Origin: Bacteroides caecigallinarum
Lineage (GTDB): Bacteria > Bacteroidota > Bacteroidia > Bacteroidales > Bacteroidaceae
Assembly: GCF_016901995.1 (NCBI RefSeq)
Contig: NZ_JACJLE010000013.1
Span: 1 to 64,000 of the forward strand
DNA: 64,000 nucleotides
Direction: 5' to 3'
The notes beneath the pieces were generated by a model. It searched no databases and was not told the origin of the DNA. It saw only the letters and a program-made list of their open reading frames with translations. Positions 12,340 to 31,337 of this stretch are shown in pieces (position 1 is the first letter of the stretch; every line of letters begins with the position of its first letter). Made by a program: the position numbers and the translations under genes.

Positions 12340-14253
12340 ATGGGAAAGATTATTGGTATTGACTTAGGTACAACAAACTCATGTGTAGCAGTGTTCGAAG
12401 GTAACGAACCAGTTGTAATCGCTAACAGCGAAGGTAAGCGTACTACTCCATCAGTAGTAGGTTTCGTTGACGGCGGCGAACGTAAAATCGGTGACCCTGC
12501 AAAACGTCAGGCTATCACAAACCCAACTCGTACAGTTTACTCAATCAAACGTTTCATGGGTGAAACTTACGAACAGGTAGCAAAAGAAATAGAACGTGTT
12601 CCATATAAAGTAGTTCGTGGCGAAAACAATACTCCACGTGTTGACATCGACGGACGTCTTTACACTCCACAGGAAATCTCAGCTATGATTCTTCAGAAAA
12701 TGAAGAAAACTGCTGAAGACTATCTTGGACAGGAAGTTACAGAAGCTGTTATCACAGTTCCGGCATACTTCTCAGACTCACAGCGTCAGGCTACAAAAGA
12801 AGCTGGTCAGATTGCAGGTCTTGAAGTAAAACGTATTGTAAACGAACCGACAGCAGCAGCACTTGCATACGGTGTTGACAAATCAAACAAGGATATGAAG
12901 GTTGCAGTGTTCGACCTTGGTGGTGGTACATTCGATATCTCAATCCTTGAATTCGGTGGCGGTGTGTTCGAAGTACTTTCTACAAACGGTGATACTCACC
13001 TTGGAGGTGATGACTTCGACCAGGTAATCATCGACTGGTTGGTTCAGGAATTCAAGAACGACGAAGGTGCTGACTTGACTCAGGACCCAATGGCAATGCA
13101 GCGTTTGAAAGAAGCAGCAGAAAAGGCAAAAATAGAATTGTCTTCTTCTACTTCTACAGAAATCAACTTGCCTTACATCATGCCTGTAGCTGGTGTTCCA
13201 AAGCACTTGGTTAAGACATTGAGCCGTGCTAAATTCGAACAGTTGGCACACAACTTGATCCAGGCTTGTCTTGAACCATGTAAGAAAGCTATGAGCGATG
13301 CAGGTTTGAGCAACTCAGATATCGACGAAGTAATCCTTGTAGGTGGTTCTTCACGTATCCCTGCAGTTCAGAAACTTGTAGAAGACTTCTTCGGTAAAGT
13401 TCCTTCTAAGGGTGTTAACCCAGACGAAGTAGTTGCAGTAGGTGCAGCAGTTCAGGGTGCCGTATTGACAGACGAAATCAAGGGTGTTGTTCTTCTTGAC
13501 GTAACTCCATTGTCAATGGGTATCGAAACAATGGGTGGTGTGATGACAAAACTTATCGACGCCAACACTACTATCCCTTGCAAGAAGAGTGAAGTGTTCT
13601 CTACAGCAGCCGACAACCAGACAGAAGTAACAATCCACGTACTTCAGGGTGAACGTCCTATGGCAGCACAGAACAAATCAATCGGTCAGTTCAACCTGAC
13701 AGGTATCGCTCCAGCTCGTCGTGGTGTTCCTCAGATTGAAGTAACATTCGATATCGATGCCAACGGTATCTTGAAAGTATCTGCTAAGGATAAGGCTACA
13801 GGTAAGGAACAGGCTATCCGTATCGAAGCTTCATCAGGTTTGAGCAAGGAAGAAATCGAACGTATGAAGGCTGAAGCTGAAGCAAACGCAGAAGCTGATA
13901 AGAAAGAAAAGGAACGTATCGACAAATTGAACCAGGCTGACAGCTTGATCTTCTCTACAGAAAATCAGTTGAAAGACCTTGGCGATAAGATCCCTGCAGA
14001 CAAGAAAGCTCCTATCGAAGCTTCTCTTCAGAAACTGAAAGACGCTCACAAGGCTCAGGATTTGGCTGGTATCGACGCTGCAAGTGCAGAACTCCAGTCA
14101 GCTTTCCAGGCAGCAAGCGCTGAAATGTATGCTCAGTCAGGCGCACAGGGCGGTGCTCAGGCAGGTCCTAACGCAGGTCAGGCAAACAATGGTGGTGCTA
14201 ATGACAAGCATGGCGACAATGTTCAAGATGCTGATTTTGAGGAAGTCAAGTAA
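12340..14253 (+). CDS. dnaK: Molecular chaperone DnaK (Hsp70)
   Basis: 637 residues. Actin-like ATPase domain with [13 protein letters not shown] at the N-terminus, the phosphate-2 motif [12 protein letters not shown] (about residues 190-201) and [13 protein letters not shown] (about 335-347). The substrate-binding domain follows ([17 protein letters not shown]), then a helical lid and a Gly/Ala-rich tail ending EEVK. It refolds proteins with DnaJ and GrpE, which are not in this window. Codon use is strongly optimised. Its last 15 bases including the stop recur at 29026-29040, which marks it as the insertion site of the accessory island. Confidence 0.98.
14239..14253 (+). repeat. Left attachment-like repeat (dnaK tail)
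   Basis: GAGGAAGTCAAGTAA, the last four sense codons and stop of dnaK. The identical 15-mer lies at 29026-29040 in the same orientation. The two copies would be attL and attR of an element integrated at the dnaK 3' end without disrupting the gene. Confidence 0.6.
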
Positions 14254-14285
14254 GTAACGATAAATAAACAATAAACATCCATAAG

Positions 14286-14324
14286 AAAAGGTGTGGAAAT
14301 CAGACGATTCCACACCTTTTTTTG
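14286..14324 (+). terminator. Terminator after dnaK
   Basis: AAAAGGTGTGGAA (14286-14298) pairs with TTCCACACCTTTT (14308-14320), followed by more T. If the island model is right, this hairpin lies inside the island and was supplied by it; a different terminator follows the second dnaK-tail copy. Confidence 0.9.
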
Positions 14325-14377
14325 TTTTTATATTTGGTGTTTTTCTATCTATGTTTATTGTTTTTTATGGAATAAAT

Positions 14378-14416
14378 GTACCATATTTGTACCGTAACTT
14401 AATGGTAGATAATGTG
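14378..14416 (+). repeat. Composite end repeat, copy 1
   Basis: GTACCATATTTGTACC (14378-14393), then GTAGATAATGTG (14405-14416) starting exactly 27 bases after the first motif. Copy 2 has the same spacing. The first motif recurs at the right end of the island. Confidence 0.7.
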
Positions 14417-14546
14417 ACACTTAAAAAATCTATAGTCTGAAAATCAAGGATATACACAAGTGGTTTTTCCTTTATCAATATTGAAAAAGAATATTGGGAT
14501 ACATTTTTGATTCATTGTTCCTAAAATATATGTAATTCACTTATTA

Positions 14547-14585
14547 GTACCATATTTGTACCGCAACAAATTAGTAGATAATGTG
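14547..14585 (+). repeat. Composite end repeat, copy 2
   Basis: GTACCATATTTGTACC (14547-14562) and GTAGATAATGTG (14574-14585), again 27 bases start to start. It begins 169 bases after copy 1, with a few mismatches between the motifs. Confidence 0.7.
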
Positions 14586-14683
14586 CAACAAATGAATATA
14601 TAAATACTTAAATAACAGTAAGTTATAAGTTTTCATATTTTCTCATCAAAGAATTGCTGAAATAAAATCAGATTGTTCTCTAA

Positions 14684-14833
14684 TTCTAATCAAATATTAC
14701 TTATTTTCTAGCTTAATAGCTTCATATATGCATCTGATAAGTCTTTGTTGTTTATCGATTTTTATCTGTAATTATTTATGTTTAATTAGCTATCGCGTGT
14801 CTTTACATTTTACGCTGCGGATTGAGTATTTTA
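14684..14833 (+). repeat. Diverged 150-bp direct repeat, left copy
   Basis: Aligns with 27945-28094 in the same orientation, at roughly 80% identity by eye. Shared blocks include GCTTCATATATGCATCT, TGTAATTATTTA, ACATTTTACGC and GGATTGAGTATTTT. It is non-coding. Confidence 0.7.
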
Positions 14834-15110
14834 ACTGGTGAATTTGTGATTGCTTTTCTGTGCATTTTCGCAGTCAGCTATGAAGGAGATAAAATATCTG
14901 ACAGAATTGCGACTAGATTCTTGATTTGAGACTCGAAGCTTTTGGTACGGTGCAGATCCAAGACCAAAGTGGTGTGGCAAGACAGCAACTGCTGAATCTC
15001 GGGCTGCAAGTGTTATAAAGTTGAGACGGAAGATTTATCTAGTACTGAAAGGACAAAGCCATCGCTATTGCTTAAAGGCACTACCTCAGTCTAATTTACG
15101 TCTTCAGATT

Positions 15111-15656
15111 TTAGGATAAAGCATTTTTTACTATCTGTTTTTCACGGATATAGTCTACCATTTCCTTTGTTGCCTTTCCTGCTCTTGCTATGTCTATAAT
15201 AGTAATACAATTTTTTTGAGGAGCATCCGGAATGCACGTCATGACTTCCTCCCATGCTGAGTCATGTAGCATGTCGGAAGTTATGTCCTTATATTGGGCA
15301 ATAGCGTCATCTAGACAACGCCTGTTTGAGCCTGAAATGTAGTCCATATTAGGTGTGGCAGAAGTATAAACCTTCTTGTCATGCACTTTTATGTTGATAA
15401 GAAATTCATCAAAATTACCCTCCAGCTGCATTCTCTCTGCTATTTGTAGTGCCTTGTAAATGTAGGTAGGAACAGGGCCATGCTTCAATGCCTTAAAAGA
15501 GTCTTCTATAAGCACTTTCCCATATTTGAGAAGATGATCCTGCTGAGCAAAATAAAGTATTTTAAATAACTTTATAAACTCTACTCCATGAGGGAAACTT
15601 TGCATGATATATAGTAATACCGCTCTCATTTTAGCTATTTGTATCTTTTCTTTCAT
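15111..15656 (-). CDS. Panacea-domain (SocA-like, DUF4065) protein A
   Basis: 181 residues from the ATG at 15656. A longer frame to 15821 exists, but its first 55 codons look unlike the family. The Panacea hallmark is FIKLFKILYFAQQDHLLKYG (about residues 28-47), followed by the HGPVP turn (about 58-62) and the helical SAWEEV region near the end. The domain is known as a promiscuous antitoxin or anti-protease-type adaptor that pairs with many unrelated toxins. No obvious partner is fused. It lies about 290 bases downstream of the frameshifted third gene of the ATPase-nuclease operon on the same strand, so a functional link is inferred. Confidence 0.78.
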   Translation of the reverse strand: MKEKIQIAKMRAVLLYIMQSFPHGVEFIKLFKILYFAQQDHLLKYGKVLIEDSFKALKHGPVPTYIYKALQIAERMQLEGNFDEFLINIKVHDKKVYTSATPNMDYISGSNRRCLDDAIAQYKDITSDMLHDSAWEEVMTCIPDAPQKNCITIIDIARAGKATKEMVDYIREKQIVKNALS

Positions 15657-15944
15657 CTTAATCAAATCTATAATTGGCAAAATGTAACTAATATTTCTGT
15701 TTAGATGATAATTCATTGGAATAGACTGCCAACCTTTTATTATTTCTTCTCTTTTTTCCTTCCAAATTAAATGTTTTGTTATGCAGATATTTGAGCAGGG
15801 CGCAACCATACTAGCCGACAATCAGGAGATATAGAATGCTTTTATAACATATTCATTATAATCACTTTCTGTTTCAACTGCTCAAAGTCTTTCCTGTTTC
15901 ATTACTGGTATCTTTATTAGATTGGACTTTTCCTATGATTTAAT

Positions 15945-16243
15945 TCATTCATTTATCAGAGAAGAATATAATGCTTTCGGCAATTCATAAACCGCCATAA
16001 ACGCAAGAATGATGTCCTTAGTTTTTACATAAGCGATACTTTCCAAACTGATAAGTCCTTTTATTAGTGGGTGGTCTCAGTTACAGATAGGCAATACACT
16101 TTAGAATCTGGATATTCTTGTCTTTTCTCCATCCATTGTTCCTGTATATATGGTTTACTCTGATAACTATCAGAGTATTTCTTGTTATTTTTAGCAAACT
16201 TTGTACTCGTTATCGTATATTCTCTGTTCAAAGACAAAGTCAT
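15945..16243 (-). pseudogene. Frameshifted third gene of the ATPase-nuclease operon
   Basis: From the ATG at 16243, overlapping the end of the upstream gene by 53 bases, a protein-like 59-codon frame runs to a TAA at 16064 (containing KPYIQEQWMEKRQEYPDS). A -1 step near 16068-16075 (ACCACCC) enters a second frame (PLIKGLISLESIAYVKTKD, then AFMAVYELPKALYSSLINE) that stops at 15945. Joined, they give about 100 residues. After that stop the same frame continues protein-like to 15822 with further stops. It is most simply a decayed gene; programmed frameshifting is less likely. The family is not recognised. Confidence 0.4.
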
Positions 16244-16841
16244 GTATCAGTAGCTCATGAGCCCGGATATTGGCGAATATTTTCTGTGGTTTTCGGAAAG
16301 CCCGTAATGATTTTGACATGATTCCATTAGGTCTCGTATCTGTCAGTCGGCATGAAAAAAGAGCCACTTTTTTTTCATAGTCGTCCAAAAAGTTGTTTAC
16401 GCTATAGAATTTTTCAATGGAGATTTCTAGTTGTTTTTTTGCGTATGCCAGTTTTCCTTCCTTTTCTTCCCCTGTTTTGGGAGAAGTGAAAGGCATGATG
16501 TATTGTTTTTCGCTTTCAGTCAACTCATTGAATATGATGAAATCATATCCGGCTATCGGATTGATGATAAAGTCACATTTACGTCCCATACCGGCATCTG
16601 TATCGCGAAAGATGTTTATATAGTGTTCGAAATCTATGATTTCTACATCTGTTTCCGAATTGTTGTTAATGACGGATACGCCATTACCTGTATATTGTAC
16701 AATTTGCAGTTGTCCGTCTCGTATTTCGAATTTGCCTTTAGGCCGTTGTTCTCTTCGGACTTGCATGGTGTCTTCTTTCCATTCCTGTCCGAAATGTGCG
16801 GGATAGTCCTTTTTGAGGAAGTCAATCAGTGCGCTGTCCAT
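16191..16841 (-). CDS. Putative PD-(D/E)XK-like partner of the AAA ATPase
   Basis: 216 residues, family not recognised with confidence. A pattern resembling a restriction-nuclease core is visible: KCDFII (D90), then YDFIIFNELTE (E106), then a helix with a conserved-looking glutamine, AKKQLEIS (Q137). The usual lysine of the E-x-K pair is replaced by threonine, so nuclease activity is only a proposal. It starts 3 bases after the ATPase stop and is certainly co-transcribed. ATPase-plus-small-effector pairs of this layout occur in defence systems such as Septu and AbiL. Its 3' end is overlapped by the frameshifted third gene. Confidence 0.55.
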   Translation of the reverse strand: MDSALIDFLKKDYPAHFGQEWKEDTMQVRREQRPKGKFEIRDGQLQIVQYTGNGVSVINNNSETDVEIIDFEHYINIFRDTDAGMGRKCDFIINPIAGYDFIIFNELTESEKQYIMPFTSPKTGEEKEGKLAYAKKQLEISIEKFYSVNNFLDDYEKKVALFSCRLTDTRPNGIMSKSLRAFRKPQKIFANIRAHELLIHDFVFEQRIYDNEYKVC

Positions 16842-16844
16842 ACA

Positions 16845-18014
16845 TTATTCCTCCATGCTTTCGTATTCGTCAAAGATTCTTTCCATCGTGTCGGACATGT
16901 CGTAGGTATTGATTACATACTCTTCCGTTTCGTTATCCGTTGCCATCAGAGATGTCAGAGTGCCTTCATGTACACGATATACGGCAATATTATCCTTTTC
17001 CAGGAATGGATAGTTTTCCCTTGCCTTTTCAAAGTATCCGGCACGAAGCAGTACGTTCAGATGGTTTACGATATAAGGGCTGTGTGTGGCTATCATCAGC
17101 CCCAGCTTGCGGTCTTCATTGTTTTTGTGGAACGCTTCATCAATAAGATTGCTTATGAGGGCCCTCTGTGCCTCTGGATCAAGACTCAGTTCAGCTTCTT
17201 CTATATGGATATGCACATACTTCTCCAAATCGCTTTGGTTGATTTGGGGAGTGAATTTTTCAAGTCTGTCTTGTTTGTACAGATAGTCCAGCACAGAGCG
17301 CTTGAAAGCATCCTTGAATGAGAATTCTTTTGCAAAATAGCGAACAATGGTGACCAATGGAGCAGATGTCTGAATACCGGAAGAAGCATATCTCAGTTCC
17401 ATAGGTTTGGTGCCTTCCTGTAATGACTCTATCATAAACTGTTTAGGCTTATTGCCGGACTTCTGGACTTTCATCTTCAGATTCAGATAGTCCAGTTGCT
17501 GTTCTTTGATGACATCTGTCGCGTTGTTGAAGTCGTTGAATGTCTCGTGAAAGAAGAAGCCGAGGCTTGCCCCTTTAAGCGTAGCCACTTTGGATGCCCA
17601 TGTAGGAATTACGCTTCGTGTTTCTGATATATACGATTCCTTGAAGAATACCAGGTCGTTGTTTGGAATGTTGATGTCCGACTGCAAAGTCTTGTTGGTA
17701 TAGGACAGGGTATATTGATTCCCGTTTATTTCTACGGTATAATATATCTCGGTTTCTACCGTTATCATGCTTTCCAGGCCGTCCTGAAGCAGAGAGTTGA
17801 AACGTAGTTTGAATGGCGAACGGGTAATCTTCGCATTTTTCAGATACGACCGGATGTTTATCATTTTATAGATATATCTCATAAGTACAATAATTTTCAT
17901 GATTGTACTCTTACCACTGGCAGACTTACCGATAAATACGGTCAGTGGCTTGATATCTCTTATTTCCACTTCTTTAAGCGGGCCTAAGTTCTTTATGATT
18001 ATAGATTCTTTCAT
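16845..18014 (-). CDS. OLD/ABC-type AAA ATPase of a defence-like operon
   Basis: 389 residues. Walker A GKSASGKST (residues 29-37), a signature-like SSGIQTSAPL (about 210), Walker B HIHIEEAELSLDP (about 270) with two acidic residues, and the H-loop ATHSPYIV (about 309). This is the AAA_15/AAA_21 group related to SMC and OLD ATPases. No Toprim domain follows, so catalysis would lie in the partner gene three bases downstream. The divergent gene upstream is a Panacea protein. The arrangement suggests an ATP-gated effector, possibly anti-phage; this is inferred from organisation, not shown. Confidence 0.8.
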   Translation of the reverse strand: MKESIIIKNLGPLKEVEIRDIKPLTVFIGKSASGKSTIMKIIVLMRYIYKMINIRSYLKNAKITRSPFKLRFNSLLQDGLESMITVETEIYYTVEINGNQYTLSYTNKTLQSDINIPNNDLVFFKESYISETRSVIPTWASKVATLKGASLGFFFHETFNDFNNATDVIKEQQLDYLNLKMKVQKSGNKPKQFMIESLQEGTKPMELRYASSGIQTSAPLVTIVRYFAKEFSFKDAFKRSVLDYLYKQDRLEKFTPQINQSDLEKYVHIHIEEAELSLDPEAQRALISNLIDEAFHKNNEDRKLGLMIATHSPYIVNHLNVLLRAGYFEKARENYPFLEKDNIAVYRVHEGTLTSLMATDNETEEYVINTYDMSDTMERIFDEYESMEE

Positions 18015-18039
18015 GATTTTGAAGTTGCTTTCTAATAGG

Positions 18040-18047
18040 CAAAGATA
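18040..18047 (-). promoter_or_regulatory. -7 box of the ATPase-nuclease operon
   Basis: The minus strand reads TATCTTTG, an exact TAnnTTTG match, 26 bases upstream of the ATPase ATG. The -33 element is unclear. Confidence 0.55.
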
Positions 18048-18205
18048 CGGATAATTAATGGATTACGGGTGTGTGAAGGCTGATTTTTCAATATTTATTT
18101 TGTTCGCTTCTATCTAAAACTTTTTTATTGTTTATTTGACCACATGTGTCGACGTACATTTGTACAGTTAATTGCTTGTTTTCTTGTCCGTTTTAAGGTT
18201 AAAGC

Positions 18206-18213
18206 TATCTTTG
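18206..18213 (+). promoter_or_regulatory. -7 box of Panacea gene B
   Basis: TATCTTTG, exact consensus, 20 bases upstream of the ATG at 18233. With the box at 18047-18040 it makes a divergent promoter region of about 160 bases that a shared regulator could bind. Confidence 0.55.
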
Positions 18214-18232
18214 TAACCAAAATACATTGATT

Positions 18233-18823
18233 ATGTGTAAATTCTCTGAATATACTAAACAGAAGCTTGGTAATACGATTGTGTATATAGCGCGTAAAAA
18301 ATCTAATCTCAGCAAGACACAACTACTGATACTTTTGTATTTGATGGAGGAACGTATGGCACTGAAATATCATATCCCGTTCATAGGCATACCGTTTGAA
18401 GTATGGCAGATCGGTCCTGTAGCAAAGGATGTGTTCGTCGATCTTTCTGACAGTCCGTATCTTCTGAAAAATTTCGTAAAAACTGATTTTAAGGATGGAG
18501 GTACTTTCATTGAAGCAATAGCCGATTTTGATGACAATGAATTCTCAGAATGTGAAATCGAGATGATGGACGAGATATTGGCAAAATATGGAAATATGAC
18601 TGCATCTGATTTGGTTTCGGAAACCCATAAGGAAGGTACTCTTTGGTATCGGACAGCAGTACGTACTGGATTATTGGAGGCATTCAATAAATATGAATGC
18701 AACAATTCCGACCAGCAAATTGACTTTACAGAAGAAATGACTGATTGTGCAGCAGAGGATTATCGTGAGAGTTTGAATATACGACAGACGGCTAATCTCT
18801 TAAATACTGAATCTCATATTTGA
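18233..18823 (+). CDS. Panacea-domain (SocA-like, DUF4065) protein B
   Basis: 196 residues from the ATG at 18233; an in-frame TTG two codons upstream is less likely. Panacea features: SKTQLLILLYLMEERMALKY (about residues 25-44), the GIPFEVWQIGPV turn (about 50-61) and a C-terminal helical part with HKEGTLWYRT. It differs clearly from protein A in sequence and has a hydrophilic tail of about 40 residues. It is divergent from the ATPase-nuclease operon. Known Panacea antitoxins neutralise diverse partners, so it could guard that operon's effector; unproven. Confidence 0.75.
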   Translation: MCKFSEYTKQKLGNTIVYIARKKSNLSKTQLLILLYLMEERMALKYHIPFIGIPFEVWQIGPVAKDVFVDLSDSPYLLKNFVKTDFKDGGTFIEAIADFDDNEFSECEIEMMDEILAKYGNMTASDLVSETHKEGTLWYRTAVRTGLLEAFNKYECNNSDQQIDFTEEMTDCAAEDYRESLNIRQTANLLNTESHI

Positions 18824-19075
18824 GGAAAGTGATTTGTTGTTTTTTCGTCCTTTTTTGTTCAGAAAGCAAGATTGCGTTCTTCAAAGTATGTAAAGCTATT
18901 TAGATATAATTTTTTAATAATGATTACTGCAGATTAATCCCAGTGGAATACCATTTGTGAACTTAAGAAATTCTTTGTATATGCCCGATTTTTTCACTTT
19001 TTATGACGATATTTATTGCTTCATCATTTTACCTGTGTTCATATTTAACAATAGTTCGTTAAAAATTAGCCTAGC

Positions 19076-20293
19076 CTAAGCGGCTCTGGCAGTAAATAAA
19101 ATGAGTTCTTTGAAAAGTTTGTCAATTAATTGCGTGTTTGGTTCAATCCCAGACACGCAAATAAATCGTTCAAGCATGTAAGCATTGTGTATGACTGACT
19201 TGCATGATGATATGGAATATTTTATTCCCATCTTCTTACATGCAGCCTTGGCGAGGTTTATCGCTGCAAGTGATGCATTAAAGTGGAATGCCAGTTTCCT
19301 GAAGTCTGTAGACTGACAGTTTGTTATTCCTGCATGTTGCTTGGCATCCCGAAAGCAGAATTCGAGTTGGAAACGTGTCCTGTAAAAGTCCAGTACATCC
19401 TGTGCGTTCTGTATTTCGTTTGTAGAGAAATACAGCTGCCATTTGTCCGTTCTTCCATCCATGGGATACCATACAGCTAGGCTCACAAAGCGTTTGAGTG
19501 CTTTGGAGTATGCTTTCAGTCCGTAAAGTTTATCCTTGTTTACTTTGTATTCGGTACATCTTGTAATGTCCAGATATTCAAAGTCAATCTTTCCGTCATA
19601 CAATTTTGGACGTCCGCGTTTTCCTGTCCCATTTTCTAAGGTGGGATAAAACAACGCTGCATCATTTCTGAAACGGCTTATAACGTGGAATCCGTTCTCG
19701 CATAATGGTTTGATGAAAGTTGCCTTTGAAAAGAACGCATCACATACGACAGTGTCGGAAATCCGTTTCAGATGTTCCTGTATGCTGATAAGGTAAGAAC
19801 TGTACCAGTCTACAAGATTCTTCCCGCGGCTTTCCAGCATTGTGTTGTCAGGTGTCTGTACAGAGGCCAAAGTCATACATTCATGGTTGTCAACGTCTAT
19901 AACTCCAATACCGGTTATCTCCAGTCCGCGTTTGTATTCGCCGGCATAACCGGACCAGAAATAGCCAATCCACGGTGTTTTGCTGCCGGATTTTGGAATG
20001 AAAGACGGATCAATGGCTATTGCCTTGCGACAGCCTTTAAGGTGTTCTCTGATGATGGCTTCATTGAAGGAAAACCAGTCAAAGTCATCATTCTCAAAAT
20101 TGTTGCGGTATGTCTGTTCCGAGAAACATCCATATCGTCCCATTTGCAGGAAATTGATGCGGTCAGGTATAGCCATGAATAATTTCATTGCATCCATGAA
20201 TACTTTCTGAAAAGATTTGCTTATATTTACAGCTGATTCGAGAGCGTTTCTGCACTCGGATTGGTATTGCATAAGGAGTGATTCTTTAGTCAT
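19076..20293 (-). mobile_element. IS4-family DDE transposase (IS copy)
   Basis: 405 residues, intact. The catalytic core has the first aspartate in IAIDPSFIPKSG (about residue 94), the second in TVVCDAFFS (about 186), and the glutamate in the IS4 signature Y-x2-R-x3-E-x6-K (YRTRFQLEFCFRDAK, about 305-319). No convincing terminal inverted repeats or target duplication could be found in the 250-300 bases on either side, so the IS ends are left undefined and the coordinates cover the gene only. It lies between Panacea gene B and a decayed ATPase gene and may have contributed to that decay. Confidence 0.85.
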
Positions 20294-20638
20294 AATTAAA
20301 AGTGGTGAAGTACTTCTAATTTACTAAAAATCAGTGAATTATGCAATACTTTTCCTCTTTGTCTTCAGCTGTTTAGCATATATTTTCATCCCTTTTCTTA
20401 CTCCTTAACGATTCATTCTTGACAGTATTTCAATGATCTCTTTAATGTAATTTTGAACTGGCTAACACCGATTCTATTGTTTTATTTTTATTTATCGGTA
20501 AAAATTTACCGAAGTATTGATTTAATGAATACGTCCGGACAAATGAACTGCATGGCCATAAACTTATAAAAATAATTTTCTATAAAAATATTTTTTTATT
20601 AATTAGATATTTATCTTTGCGGATAAATCTGAAAAACT
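20294..20638. other. Intergenic region with a perfect-arm palindrome
   Basis: No gene seen. TCGGTAAA (20495-20502) and TTTACCGA (20505-20512) are perfect inverted arms separated by AA, a likely operator shape. A TATCTTTG -7 box (20612-20619) lies before the ATG of the decayed ATPase gene. Confidence 0.5.
20612..20619 (+). promoter_or_regulatory. -7 box before the decayed ATPase gene
   Basis: TATCTTTG, exact TAnnTTTG, 20 bases upstream of the ATG at 20639. The promoter looks intact although the gene does not, and may now serve the downstream intact ATPase. Confidence 0.5.
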
Positions 20639-21609
20639 ATGTGTAGATCAGATAAGATTGGTCTATTGGCAGAATATGGTGACTTCTTCGGAAGAGAAAA
20701 GGAAATCCGCAAGGTAAACAGACAGCTTGATAGTAGCCATTCTTTTTACTGTCTGTACCTCGCCGCATTAGCAAGTCTTCATAGGCGAAATTTCTGATAG
20801 AAGAGAAAAAGAATCAGAGGTGGAAATGTGTTTATATCGACCTGGAGGAAACAATCACAGAAGATGGTTTTCTTAACCTTGTAATTGAAGCCTTCTGTAA
20901 AAATGGTATTTGGAAACAGGTAGCTAAAGGAATGTCCAAAGGGTTGACTTCAGTACTGGAAAGAATAGAGAAGATTTCTCTCGGTCCTGTTCAATTTGAT
21001 TTTTTGGAAAAAGAAGACCTGGAAAATTTCTTGAAGGAGCTAATTAGGCACGATGAAAACACATTTATTGTCGTTGATGAATAGACTCTTTTCCTAACGA
21101 TTCTCAGCATGGGGAAAACAGAATTGAAAAAGTGGACTTTATCCTCAACTGGCTTAAAAGCCTGCTACGGGTTAGCAAGACTAAAGTCCGTTGGCTGTAC
21201 TGCGGTTTTGTAGGTCTGAAAATATTGAAATGAGCGATTAGTTTGTTGAGTATTCGCTGAACAAGTTGTATTGGAACATCCCTTATTCTATTTCTCAAAA
21301 TAGGTAGAAGACTATGAGGACAAGATGACTTGGGAAGATATAGACATAGCTTATCGTAAATTATATTCAGAGAATTATTTGAGTACCTGGTCTGAGAGAC
21401 TAGTCGAATATGGTGAATACGAGCTTCCTGCCCGGTAGATTCTAAAGCTACTTGCCACTCTACGAAAAGGTATGCTCAACAATTTGATGACTGGTCAGGA
21501 TGCCTCAAAGATTGAGGCTGTTGATTATACTTTAAGCAAGGGTCTTGAATACATTATGAAGAAAGACGCTTTGCGTATGTTCTGCTCACCGCTTTTGAGG
21601 GATTATTGA
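20639..21609 (+). pseudogene. Decayed AAA/archaeal-type ATPase gene
   Basis: The frame begins MCRSDKIGLLAEYGDFFGRE, typical of bacterial archaeal-type ATPases (GREKEI motif). It then loses its P-loop region to frameshift and stops. Protein-like stretches continue in several frames: CVYIDLEETITEDGFLNLV, a Walker-B-like TFIVVDE followed directly by TAG, then ERLVEYGEYELP and a helical tail ending at 21609. At least three stops or shifts interrupt it. It ends 30 bases before an intact ATPase gene; the two probably formed a pair. Decay indicates relaxed selection or an inactivated system. Confidence 0.75.
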
Positions 21610-21638
21610 TTTGACAGATTTGTTTAATGATTAAATAG

Positions 21639-22577
21639 ATGAATACAAGTACCAGCATATTGCATCAGCCTCCTTTATCTATTGGCAATGGGATAAAGGA
21701 AGAGACTGTTGTCATAAACAATGATATTTTTACGTCCATCTTCAGCTATTTGTTAAAGGAGGACAGGGATAAGATCGCACAGCCCAATTTGATTATTGGT
21801 GAAAAAGGGAGTGGAAAGACCTCATTACTCAAAAGGATGTATTTCAGTATAGAGAACAGTACCAAATGGCTTAAGCCGGTTTTTATAGATGGAAAAAGCC
21901 TTTTCTCAACTGATGATATATGGAAGTTTTGTTCACAGCAGGATGATTCTTGCAGGACTGTCTTGTTGATTGACAATGTCCAGTACTATTTCGAGAGGAT
22001 TGATAATACTGAGCAGTATAATTTGAGGGGAAAGCTCAATAAAGCCGGTGCACCTATTCTGATAGCGACAGCCGACAAGGTGCTGCCAGCATTCACCTGT
22101 TATGAGTCTGCTTTCTTCGAAGGATTTAAGATCTCTTATATACGGCCTCTTGTCGTCACTGATTATAGTATATTCGTAGGGTATGAGGCGGATATGACAC
22201 GTTTGGAAAACCTGATGTCTTACTTGCCTAAGACACCCCGTTCTGTGCAGATTGCCGCAAAGATTATTGAAGATTCTGCAAGTCCCGAAATGGATATAAT
22301 GCTTCTTTTAGACTATTTCTCTTTCTATTATCAGGCAAAGTATGATAGCTATGTAGTGCAGATTCAAAGAATTTTATCGGCTATTGCAAGGCCTGAAAAT
22401 GGAGTCAGTCTGCAGGAGATCCGTCAGATGACAGGTCAAGATAACGGGAAGATATCCCCATATCTCAAACTGATGGCTGACCGGAAAATTATAGATAGAA
22501 CATCTCAAACCCAACGGGGAGGTATATATACCATTACAGACCCGCTGTTTAAATTATGGTTGCAAACTAATGTATAA
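21639..22577 (+). CDS. AAA_16-type ATPase with C-terminal winged helix
   Basis: 312 residues. Walker A IIGEKGSGKTSLL (about residues 52-64), Walker B TVLLIDNVQ (about 106-114), and a C-terminal winged-helix-like region (QEIRQMTGQDNGKISPYLKL) ending in a beta-wing (GGIYTITDPLFKLWL). This final motif is shared with the archaeal-type ATPases related to MNS/ORC proteins. It lacks an evident effector domain. It directly follows the decayed ATPase gene, so its natural partner may be lost. Its function is unknown; STAND-like or TA-like roles are possible. Confidence 0.7.
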   Translation: MNTSTSILHQPPLSIGNGIKEETVVINNDIFTSIFSYLLKEDRDKIAQPNLIIGEKGSGKTSLLKRMYFSIENSTKWLKPVFIDGKSLFSTDDIWKFCSQQDDSCRTVLLIDNVQYYFERIDNTEQYNLRGKLNKAGAPILIATADKVLPAFTCYESAFFEGFKISYIRPLVVTDYSIFVGYEADMTRLENLMSYLPKTPRSVQIAAKIIEDSASPEMDIMLLLDYFSFYYQAKYDSYVVQIQRILSAIARPENGVSLQEIRQMTGQDNGKISPYLKLMADRKIIDRTSQTQRGGIYTITDPLFKLWLQTNV

Positions 22578-22689
22578 TTCTTTTTAGATAATAAGAATAA
22601 AATTTGTATATATTTGGCTATCAATACTTTTCAACTAAACGATAGAAAAGTGATAAGGGAAAATTCAAGGATTATTGAAAGGATTAAAA

Positions 22690-22710
22690 TTTAATGTTTT
22701 TAACATTAAA
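22690..22710. terminator. Bidirectional hairpin between convergent genes
   Basis: TTTAATGTT and AACATTAAA are perfect inverted arms with a TTT loop, lying between the convergent genes that end at 22577 and 22867. T-rich flanking is better on the minus strand. Confidence 0.5.
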
Positions 22711-22866
22711 AACAATAAAAAGTATGACAGTGCGTAGATTATAATCTATCATGATCACTTACAAGTAAAAACTTTAAATGTTATGTGTATTGGACGTTTC
22801 CTTTGGTCACAAGAACAATTTATAAATTTTGTATTTCATTATTATAATCATCCTTGGTATGTTGCT

Positions 22867-23142
22867 TCAAAACGGTAAGTTCTCATCGCTCTCCGTTTTG
22901 TCAGGTTCAATATCCGTGTTCTCTGCCATGGTTTCTATTGCTGTATGTTCTATCTCTTTCAACACGTTGTTTATTTGCGTCTGTTCTTCCTTAGAGATGC
23001 TTTCATCATAATCACGGTCAAGTGCTTCACCAGCCAAGAGTGCCTTGATCATCTCGATATACGAGAATTGCGCCTCTGCGGTGCCCTTGAACATGGTCAC
23101 CGACACATCGCCATTTTCGTTCTTCTTGAATACCAGTTTCAT
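22867..23142 (-). CDS. Small acidic protein linked to the PHP-ATPase
   Basis: 91 residues, family not recognised. The N-terminus has a beta-rich start (MKLVFKKNENGDVSVTMF), the middle is helical (FSYIEMIKALLAGEALD) and the tail is very acidic (from about residue 72). It starts 5 bases after the stop of the PHP-ATPase gene, so it is the third gene of that operon. The size and charge suggest an accessory, inhibitor or DNA-mimic role, but nothing in the sequence decides this. It may be a conserved companion of TrlF-like ATPases. Confidence 0.65.
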   Translation of the reverse strand: MKLVFKKNENGDVSVTMFKGTAEAQFSYIEMIKALLAGEALDRDYDESISKEEQTQINNVLKEIEHTAIETMAENTDIEPDKTESDENLPF

Positions 23143-23147
23143 ATCGC

Positions 23148-25448
23148 TTAATTGAATTTTTTCAGGTTATACTTCTTTACTCTTTTCTTGATCGATGCCT
23201 TGCCACCGTCGGTCTGATCTGCTATCAGGTCCAGCACCTTCTCTTTTCCAATCTGACCTTCCAGCGATGCTGAACGGATTGTAATTTTCTTTCCGTCGTT
23301 CTTGCATAGCACAATAGTCTGAGCATCAGCCATCATCGGAATGGTGGCGTTGTGGCTCACCAGTATCACTTGCTTCCTGTACTTCACCTTTTTGATGGTC
23401 TGCACCAGCGCCTCGTTGATATACTTCACAGCCAGGTTGTCTTCCGGCTGATCAATGATGATAGGTGAATTGCCGCCATCATAGCCAAGTATCAAGTCCA
23501 GCAGGATAGCCGACTTCCAGCCAGGACTCATCTCGTAAAAATTCCTGCCATCCGAAGACACGATTTTATACGATGTATGGTCGTTTTTCCGAAGGTATTC
23601 ATAGATAAAGTCACCTAATTCCCTATATGAGCTCACCTTCGGACGCTGTTTGAATTTTGTCTGGTACATATTCTTCGGCACCACATCGTCCATATTCCTG
23701 AAGTGGTGGTTCAGATACTTGTTCAGCACCTCCATCAACACTCCTTCGTTAAATTTGAACGTGTTTTCTATGTACAGTGTGTGCCCAGTAGCCTTCACTT
23801 CCTTAGTGGTAAACGACCTGTTCATCTCGGTCAGTTTCACTTTCTGTTCAGCAAAACTGCGGCTGTATTTCACGTAGTCACGAAGGTGCTGTATCAGTTT
23901 CCTGCGGTTTTGTAAGTTGCTCTGGTTCTGACCCTGCCTTGTTTGCAGTTCTTCGTCCTTCTCATCCTTACGCGTCGCTATCAGTGCGGCCACATTTTCA
24001 AATAGCACAGCACCCCTTCTAGCTTTAGCGAGCTCCTTCAGTATAACCTCTACCTCCTTGCTGATATTGTTTGTAAACGGATTTTCGTTTACAAACTTTT
24101 CCAGATCCACCATATTTTCAACGTTGGCATTGTACTCTTCCTCCGGATAGGCGCATTTCTCCTCTTCATCATTCTTTGGCATCAGCGGCTGGAAAATGTT
24201 TCCCTCCACTTTACCCTTCGTAATCAGTTTGCCGGGATGTGGAATATCCTTCAGCCAACGCTCTATCTTCTCAATGTTTTCCACGCAAAGTAGCATCTCA
24301 TCCACTATGCGTTTCAGATCTGCCAGCGTTTTGCTGATTTGTCGCTTCACGTTGTCATCGCTCGGAAATGCTTTCTTCAGGATGGGAATCTCGTCTATCG
24401 AGGCCTCATCATTCCTGTTCACCAAATCTGCTATAAAGTTCTGATGAATGTAGTAGGGGTGAATTTCCGACGGGTTCTTTACGTCTATGTTCTCCACCTT
24501 GAACTTAGCATATTCCGAATGATGCAAATCCTGTTCAAAGAATTTGTTCACCGAGTCCACAAACAGCGTTTTGCCCGAGGACGAGCCACCTATCACCACA
24601 TTAAGTCCTTCTGTCAGTTCTACGTCAATGTCTATTAGCTCGTTTGACAACTTCACCTTACCTATGTGGTCACATTGTATCTGCGGCTTCTCCTTTTGGT
24701 AGAACAGTCTCGAACTCTCCGAGAGTGACAACCTCACGCCGTCGTATGTCGGTTCAGCCATCATCCACGTAGGCACGAAAGGCGAAGCCTCGCTCGATTT
24801 CGGTTCCGGGTAGCGGCTAGGAATATAGTTGTCTGAGCAGGTCAGCAGGTTCACAAACTCCGCTATGCCCAATTTGGCAAAATACTCTCGTGTGGTTTCC
24901 AGTCCCTTGTCCTCACGCGCAGTAAAGCCGTCAAACTGGTTGTAGTAGATACTGCGGCTGATGGCGTTATCTACCTGTTCCCCCTCATGCAGTGAGTAGT
25001 TGAACTGTCCGTGCTTCTGACCCGCGTGTGGCAGTAGCATAAACTCAAATGGATCGAAGGCATTAATTACCTTCTGTATGTCGGGTATTGACTGGTCGGT
25101 TTTGCATGGCAGTTTGTTTGTATACAGTTTGTCCAAGATCTCGTTCAGCGCTTTAATGTTTTCCTCTGTCACATCCATGTTGAAATAAATATGGCAGTGG
25201 AACGCCTCTACGTCATCGTGGTTCTTGATGTGCAGTTCTGCACCCAACAGTAGGTTAACTCCGATAGCCTTGGCTGCTAGGTATGCTTTCTTGTTAATGG
25301 TGTTGTGGTCGGTAAAGCTTATTAGGAATGGTTCATCATTGTTGTACTCCTCAATCTTCTTCACCAGCGTCACAACATCATAGTCCGTCGAACGGTCGTT
25401 CGCATTGGGATAGGTGTGGATATGTAAGTCAATATACACTGGCTGCAT
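23148..25448 (-). CDS. TrlF-like PHP-phosphoesterase fused to an SMC-type ATPase
   Basis: 766 residues. The N-terminal PHP domain (about 1-230) shows DLHIHTYPNAN, SFTDHNTI, GAELHI, HCHIYF and LPHAGQKHG, together the histidine, aspartate and glutamate metal ligands of the fold. The ATPase follows: Walker A GGSSSGKTLF (about 288), a long charged helical insert (about 340-560), Walker B PIIIDQPEDNL (about 663) and the H-loop VSHNAT. Databases name this architecture TrlF-like. A nuclease or phosphoesterase gated by an SMC-like ATPase is the natural reading. It is the middle gene of a three-gene operon, 18 bases after an AAA_21 ATPase. Confidence 0.82.
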   Translation of the reverse strand: MQPVYIDLHIHTYPNANDRSTDYDVVTLVKKIEEYNNDEPFLISFTDHNTINKKAYLAAKAIGVNLLLGAELHIKNHDDVEAFHCHIYFNMDVTEENIKALNEILDKLYTNKLPCKTDQSIPDIQKVINAFDPFEFMLLPHAGQKHGQFNYSLHEGEQVDNAISRSIYYNQFDGFTAREDKGLETTREYFAKLGIAEFVNLLTCSDNYIPSRYPEPKSSEASPFVPTWMMAEPTYDGVRLSLSESSRLFYQKEKPQIQCDHIGKVKLSNELIDIDVELTEGLNVVIGGSSSGKTLFVDSVNKFFEQDLHHSEYAKFKVENIDVKNPSEIHPYYIHQNFIADLVNRNDEASIDEIPILKKAFPSDDNVKRQISKTLADLKRIVDEMLLCVENIEKIERWLKDIPHPGKLITKGKVEGNIFQPLMPKNDEEEKCAYPEEEYNANVENMVDLEKFVNENPFTNNISKEVEVILKELAKARRGAVLFENVAALIATRKDEKDEELQTRQGQNQSNLQNRRKLIQHLRDYVKYSRSFAEQKVKLTEMNRSFTTKEVKATGHTLYIENTFKFNEGVLMEVLNKYLNHHFRNMDDVVPKNMYQTKFKQRPKVSSYRELGDFIYEYLRKNDHTSYKIVSSDGRNFYEMSPGWKSAILLDLILGYDGGNSPIIIDQPEDNLAVKYINEALVQTIKKVKYRKQVILVSHNATIPMMADAQTIVLCKNDGKKITIRSASLEGQIGKEKVLDLIADQTDGGKASIKKRVKKYNLKKFN

Positions 25449-25466
25449 GGTATTCGCCTCCTTTCT

Positions 25467-26765
25467 CTATTCGTTACAACCTTTAAATTCATCCTCAAAG
25501 TATGGAATTGCACCATACTTGCCTTCCAAATAATTCTTCTCGTAGTTGCTATCTGTCCTAGGCTTTGCCCCGTTGTCCAGCGTTATACTCATCATCGGTG
25601 TAAGTTTTGTAGAATAGCTCGTTTTTGCCGTCTTTTCTACGAAGACCACCTGATCCCGTCTCAGCAATTTCTTTGACAGCATGTTAGTATCATGAGTCGT
25701 AAAAATCAGCTGGGCTCCGTGAGGGTTCGTTTCTGCATAGTTAAAGAGTTTTACAATACGTCGCGACAACAGCGGGTGCAACTGTGCATCCAGTTCATCC
25801 ACAAACAGCGATTTCCCTTGCCGTAAGGTGTCAACAATAGGCCCGGCAAGATTAAACAGTTTCCTCGTACCATCCGACTCCCTTTCTTCTATGTCAAAAT
25901 CAACCATCCCAACAACCTCACCATCTGCGTTTATTTTGCTATGCTTGGCATAGGCAACAATGGGTGGATGCTCTTTTAGGGATGCCACAATTTCTGCGGG
26001 CAGACCTTTGGGCAGCATCTTTTCGTCAATATACTCTTGTTCGGTGGTCACTTCACGGAACCCCACATCCATACTGCTGATAAAGTCCAAAATTTCATCT
26101 TTATAATCAGTCCTGGTATGAAGTATCTCCTTAGTATAGCGCGAAAAGTCATTATCTCGCAAACCGGAAATCACGCTAGGCTTTGTTCTGAACCATTCTA
26201 TCACTCGTTTCGATATCTCGCCTCCCAATTGTGCGGCTAACGAAATGAACAACCTGTTATTGTTCAGTGGAATGGTGCCTTCTTTTATTGACAAACCTTC
26301 CGAGTAGTTCTGCTCATCAATCTCAATTGTATTTTGGGTGCGTCTTAATAGTGTCTTAAGTGATCGCTTGGGGAATTTTGCTACCAGCCATTCTTCTTCT
26401 ATCCGTTTCGCAGTGTAGCTGAAACCGTATGTAAACTTGTCGGTGCCATCCACAAATGACATTTCAAACCGTGTTGGTCTCGCCTCCTTATCCGAAAGGA
26501 GAAAAGCATCATACGGTAACGTTTCGTTATCGTTCAGCCTCACTGAATGAATAATGATACCCCTCATCATTCCAACAGCCTTGAACACATTTGATTTACC
26601 GCAAGAGTTGGCTCCATAGAAAGCCTTGGCGTTAAGAACGCGAGTGTTTGCAACAGTGGTATATCCCCTGTTGTCCATGTCCTTAATGCCTGTATCAGCC
26701 ATGAACGACAATCTGATTTCTCCGTCTATCGAACGGTAATTCTCTACGATAAAGTTTGTTATCAT
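25467..26765 (-). CDS. AAA_21/RloA-AbiLi-like ATPase, first gene of the TrlF operon
   Basis: 432 residues. The N-terminus FIVENYRSIDGEIRLSF is typical of AAA_21/ATP-GTP-phosphatase proteins. Walker A is FYGANSCGKSN (about residues 49-59), Walker B is SLFVDELDAQLHP (about 321) and the H-loop is FTTHDTNML (about 355). RloA and AbiLi ATPases of this type normally pair with RloB/AbiLii (DUF4276). No such gene is present here; the PHP-ATPase takes its place. Two ATPases and a small acidic protein in one operon is an uncommon combination. Confidence 0.82.
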   Translation of the reverse strand: MITNFIVENYRSIDGEIRLSFMADTGIKDMDNRGYTTVANTRVLNAKAFYGANSCGKSNVFKAVGMMRGIIIHSVRLNDNETLPYDAFLLSDKEARPTRFEMSFVDGTDKFTYGFSYTAKRIEEEWLVAKFPKRSLKTLLRRTQNTIEIDEQNYSEGLSIKEGTIPLNNNRLFISLAAQLGGEISKRVIEWFRTKPSVISGLRDNDFSRYTKEILHTRTDYKDEILDFISSMDVGFREVTTEQEYIDEKMLPKGLPAEIVASLKEHPPIVAYAKHSKINADGEVVGMVDFDIEERESDGTRKLFNLAGPIVDTLRQGKSLFVDELDAQLHPLLSRRIVKLFNYAETNPHGAQLIFTTHDTNMLSKKLLRRDQVVFVEKTAKTSYSTKLTPMMSITLDNGAKPRTDSNYEKNYLEGKYGAIPYFEDEFKGCNE

Positions 26766-27133
26766 AACTTCATTTTGTGGTTTTTACTCAAATTCGGCTT
26801 GTAAATATATGCATTTTAGTTTGTACGCACAAAAAAATTTGCATTTTCTTCAAAAAGAAGACAAATTGTCAGAAAATAACACACCAACCTGACAGTAGCA
26901 GTTTTGGCTGACAGTATGACATAATTATGCGGATTTGGCGTAATATCAACGATTTATCTACTTATTTTCGATAAAATTGTTGTAATTTATGAGGTTTTTA
27001 CTCAAATTTTAAGATTTGGCATTCTTGTTGCTTATAATCAGGATGTGGACTCGTTCCTGAGCATCGAAACCACTCCAAGGTGTAAAGCTCTGCTGTACTG
27101 TTCAGATTACAGGATATAAACCATAATTGCTCT
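26766..27133. other. Intergenic region between divergent cargo genes
   Basis: No gene seen. It holds the promoter of the TrlF operon and two copies of GGTTTTTACTCAAATT (26779-26794 and 26993-27008), a perfect 16-bp direct repeat 214 bases apart. Confidence 0.5.
26802..26833 (-). promoter_or_regulatory. Promoter of the AAA_21-TrlF operon
   Basis: On the minus strand TTTG (26833-26830) as -33 and TATATTTA (26809-26802; seven of eight consensus positions) as -7, with a 20-base spacer. The ATG follows 36 bases downstream. Confidence 0.6.
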
Positions 27134-27412
27134 ATGACATACGTCAAAAACGCAAGTGGTACTTCCAGATGGTCAAGCCCCTCAACGGGTGAATCATCGT
27201 GGTTGGAGTATTGGGAAAAACATACGGGTAAAAAGGCTATCCGTTGTGGTGCTACCGATTGCCATTCCACAAGCACACTCGTTGGCGGGCACGTCCAGAA
27301 GGTTTTCGGGGGTAATGAAATCTACATCACCCCTCTGTGCAAAGGCTGCAACAATCGCACAGACAACTTCTGGGTTGACACCGAACTGGTTAGAGTACCA
27401 AACGGATTGTAA
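27134..27412 (+). CDS. Small HNH-like zinc-binding protein
   Basis: 92 residues. A treble-clef pattern is visible: IRCGATDC (about residues 37-44), VGGHVQKV (about 50-57) and TPLCKGCNNR (about 66-75), giving two cysteine pairs plus a histidine. This resembles small HNH-type proteins found on mobile elements, but a full HNH catalytic triad is not certain. It overlaps no other credible gene. The DUF2188 gene follows 88 bases later. Confidence 0.6.
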   Translation: MTYVKNASGTSRWSSPSTGESSWLEYWEKHTGKKAIRCGATDCHSTSTLVGGHVQKVFGGNEIYITPLCKGCNNRTDNFWVDTELVRVPNGL

Positions 27413-27500
27413 ACCGTTGCATGGTATGCAACGCCTCAAGTGCTCCGTAGCGGAATCGGAAGGCCACCGCATTGTTTTTCACAATTTAAACCTTACTGTT

Positions 27501-27737
27501 ATGAGGAAAGAGATACACATTGTTTCTAATCCAAACAGAGGAGGTTGGGATGCGAAAAGACCTAACGCAGACAGGGCTTCAAAGCATTTTGATACGAAAA
27601 AAGAAGCAATGGAGTGGAGTCGCGATCTGGCAAAGAGGGAAGGACTAGAACTTATTCCTCATGGAGCAGATGGTAAGATTCAAAATCCCAACAGCTATGG
27701 AAATGACCCATGTCCTCCCAAGGACTCCAGGCATTAA
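27501..27737 (+). CDS. DUF2188-family small protein
   Basis: 78 residues. It shows the compact pattern seen in DUF2188: IHIVSNPNRGGWDAKRPNAD (about residues 5-24), KHFDTKKEAMEWSRDLAKR (about 28-46) and LELIPHGADGKIQ (about 50-62). The biochemical role of the family is unknown. A longer frame starting at 27156 was set aside because it runs antiphase through the HNH-like gene. A strong terminator follows the stop by 19 bases. Confidence 0.75.
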   Translation: MRKEIHIVSNPNRGGWDAKRPNADRASKHFDTKKEAMEWSRDLAKREGLELIPHGADGKIQNPNSYGNDPCPPKDSRH

Positions 27738-27756
27738 GCATCGCTTTTCATGGAGG

Positions 27757-27789
27757 TAGCAGGCCGTTTCAAAGGCCTGCTATTTTTAT
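27757..27789 (+). terminator. Terminator after the DUF2188 gene
   Basis: TAGCAGGCC (27757-27765) pairs with GGCCTGCTA (27774-27782), followed by TTTTTATT. Confidence 0.9.
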
Positions 27790-27944
27790 TCTAGATAGGC
27801 ACTGTCCGGAATTTTGTGTAAATTGAAACAGGATTCAGCTGCAAGTTTGTTTTTATATCTGGATTCTGTTCTCAAATTGGTTCATAATCAAACTCTAGTT
27901 ATGAATAGACTGTATCCATTTCTTCTCAATTTCCAGTACTATAG

Positions 27945-28094
27945 TTTCTAATCAATATTACTCATTCTCTTGCTTAATTGCTTCATATATGCATCTTATA
28001 AGTCTTTTTAACTTATTGATTTTTGTATGTAATTATTTAATGTTCATTTAGTTATTGTGTATCTCTACATTTTACGCAGTGGATTGAGTATTTT
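27945..28094 (+). repeat. Diverged 150-bp direct repeat, right copy
   Basis: Partner of 14684-14833, same orientation and non-coding. The two copies enclose the whole cargo; recombination between them would delete about 13 kb. Confidence 0.7.
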
Positions 28095-28968
28095 TACAAT
28101 ACAATGTATCATTCATAATTAATATCAGTTCATGAGTTTTGAACAGTAACGACATCGTGAACGTATAAAAGCAAGAATTTTATCTTGTTCTATGAAAGTA
28201 TCATCAACAATCTTCCTTCGTTATATAGGAAATTAGTTTGGACTGCCTGATATTTCCTTTAGCAAAAAAACATAAGAACAAAAAAGCCATAAGAACGATG
28301 TTGTATCTCTTCATTTATACATTAATAATATGCTTGCATATCTGCATGTCTAATAAATGAGACAAGATCTTGTTTTCACTTTTCGAGCAACTTAAAAACA
28401 GTTTAGTTTGGTTTATTTCCTTTATTTATAGATACTAAATTAAACTGATTAATATATAGGGCCGCACATGGAGTTATTTTTTACTACAAAGACTTGCCCG
28501 ATCGGTAATGTATAAGAGTAAAATATTATTTTTCCGTATGATGGTAAATCCATTATTTGCCAAATAAGATTGTTGCGAGTATTAGCCAGCCCCTGCGTAA
28601 TTTGATGACGATAAGCCTTGCTGCAGAAACATCCACAACAGTTTGACGGTGTTGTACTTTTGCGACATCAGTCCCCCAAGCCTCTCAACGATGCTCAAAA
28701 CTGGGTCGTTTATTTTTATCCATCTATGAGCATTCAATTTGACACTAATGTAGTGAGAATAATTCCTATTATCAATGGGATGGCAAGCTGGTTTATGCAC
28801 AACACATCAAATATCTCAATGGAGATAACTGATAGCAGCAGGATCGTTATAACCTGTATTATCAGTACAAAGAATACAATCTTTATACTCCACTTAACAC
28901 CTAAAAATCAATTATTTACAGTTCTATATTCCTCAATTTTGTATATATGGATATTTACGGTATAAAAT

Positions 28969-28997
28969 TACCATATTTGTACCATGATATTTGTAAC
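28969..28997 (+). repeat. Right-end short repeats
   Basis: TACCATATTTGTACC (28969-28983) matches 15 of the 16 bases of the left-end motif. It is overlapped by a degenerate second copy GTACCATGATATTTGTAAC (28979-28997). It lies about 43 bases from the second dnaK-tail copy. Confidence 0.65.
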
Positions 28998-29025
28998 ATT
29001 CTGATAATCAGCTAAAGTTGTTTTA

Positions 29026-29040
29026 GAGGAAGTCAAGTAA
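29026..29040 (+). repeat. Right attachment-like repeat (dnaK-tail copy)
   Basis: GAGGAAGTCAAGTAA, identical to the dnaK 3' end at 14239-14253. The codons upstream (AAA GTT GTT TTA) resemble but do not match dnaK. A terminator follows within 20 bases, as expected for the original sequence downstream of dnaK. Confidence 0.6.
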
Positions 29041-29059: not shown

Positions 29060-29094
29060 AAAAGGCGTGCAGTCCAATGGATTGTACGCCTTTT
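29060..29094 (+). terminator. Terminator after the dnaK-tail copy
   Basis: AAAAGGCGT (29060-29068) pairs with ACGCCTTTT (29086-29094), with further G-T-rich pairing inside. It could be the ancestral dnaK terminator displaced by the island. Confidence 0.8.
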
Positions 29095-31335: not shown

Positions 31336-31337
31336 TT

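Follow-up and report, generated by a model that had tools for sequence, protein, structure and literature searches.

NBU1 targets a leucine tRNA gene, CTnDOT targets several sites, and a further kind of mobile island is termed the cis-mobilisable element (CIME). The IntCTnDOT subgroup, to which CTnDOT and NBU1 belong, comprises Bacteroidetes elements whose integrases have arm-binding, core-binding and catalytic domains (PMC8138268). Ends of coding genes are also known as attachment sites, with SGI1 at the 3' end of trmE and a set of elements at dusA (PMC8409611, PMC4482086). Here we examined a 64,000-nucleotide stretch of Bacteroides caecigallinarum DNA (contig NZ_JACJLE010000013.1, positions 1 to 64,000; hereafter the window), in which an island lies directly behind the chaperone gene dnaK. 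We are highly confident that this island is an integrase-less, CIME-like remnant of a site-specific integrative element, the chromosomal attachment site (attB) being the last codons of dnaK. Compared by description, it resembles SGI1 and the dusA elements in being attached at an end of a conserved protein-coding gene; SGI1 differs in its gene and its hosts, and the dusA elements differ in their gene and in using its 5' end. The integrases of its relatives have Pfam domains corresponding to those of the IntCTnDOT subgroup (two scanned; the island itself has none), whereas they usually target the 3' end of dnaK, a distinction from CTnDOT and NBU1 that is drawn from the targets given above and not from integrase sequence.

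An earlier note on this DNA had claimed that the last 15 bases of dnaK occur again far downstream, and we found the second copy to be exact and in the same orientation. When both strands of the window were searched with up to two mismatches, these two matches were the only ones and lay on the same strand; shuffled sequences gave a mean of 0.15 matches, and 2 of 100 shuffles reached two. The reading frame of dnaK was retained at full length, as had also been claimed, and over its 3' 1254 bases the gene was 95-97% identical at the DNA level to that of the three nearest relatives in the genus. We conclude that the two 15-mer copies mark attL and attR, the left and right attachment sites of a site-specific element, a reading that is supported by the integrase association and the homology of the ends described below. 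The end of a chaperone gene had seemed an odd site to the earlier note; it proved to be the usual target of an integrase group found throughout the Bacteroidales.

Both ends of the island were homologous to the ends of integrase-bearing elements at dnaK. A hidden Markov model (HMM) of the left end, built from five integrase-bearing elements of other species, matched positions 14255-14435 (56.4 bits, E 8.4e-17, profile positions 2-180), and its maximum over 20 Markov shuffles was 6.4 bits. An HMM of the right end, built from six such elements with the core left out, found its best match in the window at 28958-29019 (33.7 bits, E 1.6e-9), with a maximum of 13.3 bits over 40 Markov shuffles. The palindrome CTGATAATCAG of the right end begins 22 bases and ends 11 bases ahead of the 18-base core, a spacing that was the same in most relatives with such a right end. 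Furthermore, a second, partial left end was detected behind the first, accompanied by a 39-nt direct repeat (D3, 87%), and we take it as the probable remnant of an older element. The arm region, which thus occurs twice in the window, is the telling part of the left-end match. The strong terminator that had been claimed behind each copy was confirmed on the left, where the hairpin at 14286-14324 passed the terminator test; the hairpin at 29060-29094 has only a four-T run and failed it. Two adjoining direct repeats of 95 and 61 nt (83% and 82% alike) were also noted inside the island near both ends, at 14693-14835 and 27954-28097, with the pairs about 13.26 kb apart.

The association of dnaK with an integrase was seen in other members of the genus (G, C and L numbers are our handles for genomes, contigs and loci). 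In five loci (L035, L037, L038, L044 and L045) dnaK was followed by a helix-turn-helix (HTH) protein and a tyrosine integrase. The one HTH protein scanned contained two HTH_17 stretches, and the two integrases scanned contained Arm-DNA-bind_5, Phage_int_SAM_5 and Phage_integrase domains; R276, H360, R363, H386 and Y395, which we take to be the catalytic residues, were invariant in three aligned integrases. Among 61 genomes of the genus there were 14 integrase matches at 58-100% identity, one of them partial, and G001 carried a 63-residue fragment at 70% identity; the next long matches followed after a gap, at 43-45%. For eleven of the 14, a dnaK end or a copy of it stood no more than 5 kb ahead, and the other three (G051, G011 and G001) had the core about 770 bp upstream of the integrase at places where dnaK was absent. 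Two integrases at 43-44% identity (G014 and G049) showed a similar gene order by eye, with the core absent upstream.

The search for integrases adjoining dnaK that the earlier note had suggested was strongly positive when extended to named genomes. Within the best 80 of 156 integrase loci, which are not independent because some elements are identical, 72 integrases lay behind dnaK, 70 of them by tblastn with dnaK upstream on the same strand and two (L111 and L121) behind a dnaK cut short by the edge of the contig; L151 was undecidable. The hosts of these 80 loci were Bacteroides, Phocaeicola, Prevotella and relatives, Porphyromonas, Tannerella, Dysgonomonas, Maribellus and others. In most loci the integrase starts 754-810 bp past the core; the exceptions are one locus at 1045 bp and two at about 3.69 kb. 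A terminator-like hairpin stood behind the core in 77 of 77 loci versus 4 of 385 shuffles (the three loci lacking an exact core were excluded). In IMG/VR, 5 of 17 contigs matching the dnaK-end pattern had a related integrase behind it (L214, L226, L215, L216 and L223); two of the IMG/VR integrases were only about 42% identical, suggesting that a second integrase group may use the dnaK site.

Two elements were each found in two different hosts, which allowed the crossover to be located. G006 and G007 were identical over all 1500 bases available ahead of the right core and had different flanks behind it, and the same was true of G016 and G201 over all 497 bases available. The integrase DNA was 100% identical in L081 and L082 (G201 and G016), with dnaK regions at 84%, and 100% identical in L122 (G006) and L115, with dnaK regions at 82%. 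In the left copies the bases that followed the host were at core positions 3 (G016/G201) and 9 (G006/G007), and in the right copies they were at positions 12 and 17 (G016/G201). The exchange is therefore placed between positions 9 and 12, within the Glu-Val codons. The dnaK gene of G201 currently terminates in GTG AAA TAA and the displaced chromosomal end reads GTC AAA TGA: the element has swapped the wobble base, the stop codon and the terminator, and the DnaK protein is unaltered.

These data suggest the following mechanism. The tyrosine integrase of intact relatives, which has an arm-binding domain and whose gene begins some 770 bp past the core, would recombine the element's own site, attP, with the dnaK 3' end. 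It would bind arm-type sites at both ends, GTACCATATTTGTACC on the left and ATATTTGTACCATG together with CTGATWWTCAG on the right, and the two-HTH_17 protein encoded ahead of it would be the probable excisionase. With a crossover within the Glu-Val codons, the incoming element would bring the third Val base, Lys, the stop codon and a terminator, leaving the DnaK sequence unchanged and moving the old dnaK end to the far side as attR. The copy in the window would have kept both ends and its defence-like cargo and lost the integrase and HTH genes; the second left end, stranded there, points to occupation by two or more elements. At the 70 loci with dnaK upstream the integrase points in the direction of dnaK, with the element-borne terminator between them. 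That the dnaK end was chosen for stress coupling as well as for its conserved sequence, strong transcription of this heat-shock gene under stress passing the terminator and raising integrase expression, seems improbable to us; if true, it would link excision and transfer of ICEs and IMEs (integrative and conjugative or mobilisable elements) to proteotoxic stress.

The DNA 3' of dnaK varied widely among the 20 genus loci read. We searched 19 genomes, chosen from the 61 for usable contigs, with a degenerate 18-mer of the dnaK end. Nine of them, or 8 of 18 when the window's genome is set aside, carry another dnaK end farther downstream on that contig in the same orientation, at distances of 2.6, 3.9, 14.8, 19.8, 26.6, 29.1, 83.2, 106.2 and 194.3 kb; a single additional match proved unrelated, and three matches were obtained with the reversed pattern as a control. 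In a wider search, 245 of 301 genomes of the family had a dnaK-end match. We picked 14 same-strand pairs on one contig among the matches listed, leaving out G069 (1.9 Mb apart) and opposite-strand pairs in G101, G301 and G121, and dnaK stood upstream of the left copy in 12 of the 14, G248 with its doubled dnaK tail included. The conjugation ATPase TIGR03783 was found inside the elements of G006, G007 (in pieces) and G016, so that the relatives of the island include integrative and conjugative elements (ICEs). The element of G023, which contains a partial relaxase match (E 1.4e-7), is likely an integrative and mobilisable element (IME). In G005 (L164, G005:C6:1-16000, core at 7341) a second integrase (58%) was observed directly behind the displaced dnaK-end copy, and two elements appear to be stacked at one dnaK.

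The earlier note had predicted an empty site in related genomes, with dnaK followed directly by the sequence beyond the second copy, and this was borne out in part. G004, whose dnaK is 96% identical, lacks the cargo and has dnaK, a terminator, a NUDIX/mutT-like open reading frame (ORF; identified by eye) and yaaA. Its terminator resembled both terminators of the window about equally (local scores of 30 and 33; none of 2000 shuffles scored as high in either case), and terminator homology was accordingly rejected as proof of an empty site. G012 (dnaK 95% identical) also lacks the cargo; here the left end of an element (left-end HMM, 50.1 bits, E 3.5e-15) stands directly behind dnaK, followed by yaaA, and there is one core copy only, so that we read this locus as a probable left-end scar. 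Since yaaA lies downstream in G004, G012, G003 and the window, the order dnaK then yaaA looks native. A cargo-free relative with a 14286-type terminator behind dnaK and a copy of the downstream core elsewhere was what the earlier note had set against an insertion; G012 has the former, and its single core copy departs from the latter. The virus-particle record MT836643 (81.6% integrase identity) was considered as a circular form and rejected, as it begins inside the left end and has neither core nor right end.

Several observations weigh against the interpretation of the island as an inserted element. A clean empty site was not found in the relatives: G004 is suggestive, and G012 keeps a left end. 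The attP junctions of two relatives' elements had 0 and 0 matches in viral contigs, and excision was not observed. The genomes compared were one per species, which places comparison within a species outside this sample. G083 and G121, among the 14 picked pairs, had no dnaK in the stretch examined, and an integrase of at least 57% identity was present in only 4 of the 14 (1.4-1.6 kb read behind the left copy). In G248 two dnaK-like tails lie 1.3 kb apart (L186, G248:C49, 13735-13752), apparently a duplicated dnaK 3' end with no element. Terminator-only matches to the left-end HMM occurred in G019, G042, G025 and G017 (31-60 bits, profile positions up to 87), and the highest of them (up to 60 bits in G017 and G025, with no arm region) rival the total score of the window; the window stands apart from these flanks because its match extends across the arm region as far as position 180. 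Finally, 7 of the 80 integrase loci lay away from dnaK (L083, L086, L096, L116, L119, L127 and L132). Of these, L116 and L119 carry the G006 element's left end in different locations, the core showing one and two mismatches, respectively, and L132 has no core. A tandem arrangement was rejected for the seven loci with a core but no dnaK (L083, L086, L096, L111, L121, L127 and L151), as the right-end HMM was unmatched upstream; L083, L086, L096 and L127, with at least 2 kb upstream, are probably secondary sites, and an adjacent element whose right end is of a different type may exist.

The cargo and the present state of the island are consistent with a remnant (Table 1). Defence roles of the cargo would follow from the families, several of the matches being under curated cut-offs. 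The PHP-AAA protein was confined to the window's own genome among the 61 (E <= 1e-60), and the idea of a cargo common to another member of the genus was rejected on this basis. The between-gene decay that had been claimed is a fair description: the 11 ORFs counted cover 66% of the island, leaving about one third ORF-free, and its GC content is 38.8% versus 41.8% and 40.8% in the flanks. The claimed absence of an integrase was likewise upheld, with none among the 10 island proteins scanned (smaller ORFs fell outside the scan). Tblastn of the window with 10 proteins (four dnaK-type integrases, their four HTH partners and two others) gave two trivial matches only, E 0.19 and 0.40, and an integrase relic was rejected. 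In the genome as a whole, whose assembly is estimated to be 99.67% complete, no cognate integrase exceeded 33% identity among the matches listed (29-33%; three of four listed). Neither a relaxase nor conjugation genes were found among the 10 island proteins, and the single PF03432 match (the genome-wide relaxase search was for PF03432 only) and the single TIGR03783 match of the genome were both on contig C190. A composite transposon was rejected because the single IS701-like gene is internal and there are no insertion sequence (IS) copies at both edges. Like a CIME, the island has attL and attR flanking cargo with no integrase or transfer genes detected, and it looks like an old integrase-less remnant of that kind, for which mobilisation in cis is putative. 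The earlier note's interpretation of the dnaK end as an attachment site is upheld, as is its view of the island as cis-mobilisable or a relic.

Table 1. Features of the dnaK locus and the island, in window coordinates
Feature	Position	Strand	Evidence or remark
dnaK, target gene	12340-14253	+	ORF of 637 aa, full length, ending FEEVK-stop
attL core, final 15 bases of dnaK with stop codon	14239-14253	+	Exact 15-mer
Element left end	14254-14435	+	Tandem arm-type motif GTACCATATTTGTACC at 14378-14393
Left-end terminator, element-borne	14286-14324	+	Strong hairpin and T-run right behind dnaK stop
Second, partial left end (arm region only)	14542-14592	+	HMM positions 120-170, 25.8 bits, E 1.8e-7
SocA/Panacea-domain protein, cargo	15111-15821	-	PF13274 E 2.4e-17
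Partner of AAA_21 gene, PADLOC candidate PDC-M29B-like	16191-16841	-	E 2.9e-5; putative function
AAA_21 ATPase, PDC-M29A-like, cargo	16845-18014	-	PF13304 E 2.9e-23; PDC-M29A E 8.8e-29
Second SocA/Panacea-domain protein, cargo	18227-18823	+	PF13274 E 8.9e-17
IS701/IS4-like DDE transposase, internal	19076-20293	-	PF01609; NCBIfam IS701 E 2.8e-29, under its cut-off
STAND-like NTPase piece	21639-22577	+	Weak matches, all under cut-offs
PHP-AAA ATPase, TrlF/Ppl-like, cargo	23148-25448	-	NF045780 E 5.4e-58 (under cut-off); Ppl E 7.2e-20
AbiLi-like AAA ATPase, cargo	25467-26765	-	PADLOC AbiLi E 2.9e-86
Element right end	28958-29019	+	ACCATATTTGTACCATG at 28970-28986; palindrome CTGATAATCAG at 29001-29011
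attR core, second dnaK-end copy	29026-29040	+	Exact 15-mer; 18-base core 29023-29040
Hairpin after attR	29060-29094	+	Good stem, four-T run; presumed dnaK terminator of the chromosome

Two further explanations are compatible with a remnant. We consider it fairly probable that the island was built by several events at one hot spot, including stacked elements, IS insertion and deletions. The partial left end at 14542, the 95- and 61-nt direct repeats, the internal IS701-like gene and a separate restriction-modification pair directly outside attR all point this way, whereas the left and right outer ends both match a single element type. Somewhat less likely than not is that the island is still live and no dead relic, excisable through attL and attR by an incoming dnaK-type ICE or IME. 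Both ends, the core and the right-end spacing are kept, and the stacked occupation in G005 provides a precedent; the lack of a cognate integrase among the genome matches listed, the lack of a detected relaxase and the ORF-free third of the island argue against it. Very improbable is a chance or gene-conversion repeat, in which a dnaK tail fragment was copied downstream with ordinary chromosome between: DnaK tails are conserved and G248 has two of them, but the DNA preceding the right copy bears no likeness to dnaK and instead matches the right end of integrase-bearing elements, and the same two-copy arrangement recurs in other genomes of the genus.

Attachment at the end of a coding gene is a known kind of insertion; the dnaK target, its wide use in the Bacteroidales and the crossover map look new. 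A dnaK attachment site was undescribed in the titles and abstract beginnings listed, two of the lists covering part of the results (25 of 309 and 12 of 2,726), and the word dnaK was absent from the main text of PMC5704250, PMC8138268 and PMC12884075. In PMC5714932, dnaK figures as an island cargo gene and as an entry in a virulence list. The site is a chromosomal docking site common to Bacteroides, Phocaeicola, Prevotella and relatives, Porphyromonas and Tannerella, used by a family of mobile elements in gut and oral Bacteroidales, and stretches of 2.6-194 kb occupy it. Because it is shared and variably occupied, one polymerase chain reaction or an alignment of dnaK 3' flanks could report the mobile DNA of a strain. 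In addition, a dnaK-end copy together with the right-end motif provides a rule for finding integrase-less islands, and the dnaK end with its matching integrases is a candidate landing site for genetic work in these commensals.

Two minor features were observed around the right end of the island. A small Cys/His-containing ORF with no Pfam match, followed by a DUF2188 protein (PF09954 E 8.5e-20), lies near this end at 27134-27737. Just outside attR, at 29239-32435, we found an AccI-type restriction endonuclease (PF09545 E 1.2e-145) with an Eco57I-type methylase; the GC content of this region is 32.7%, and the pair probably arrived between dnaK and yaaA in an insertion of its own.

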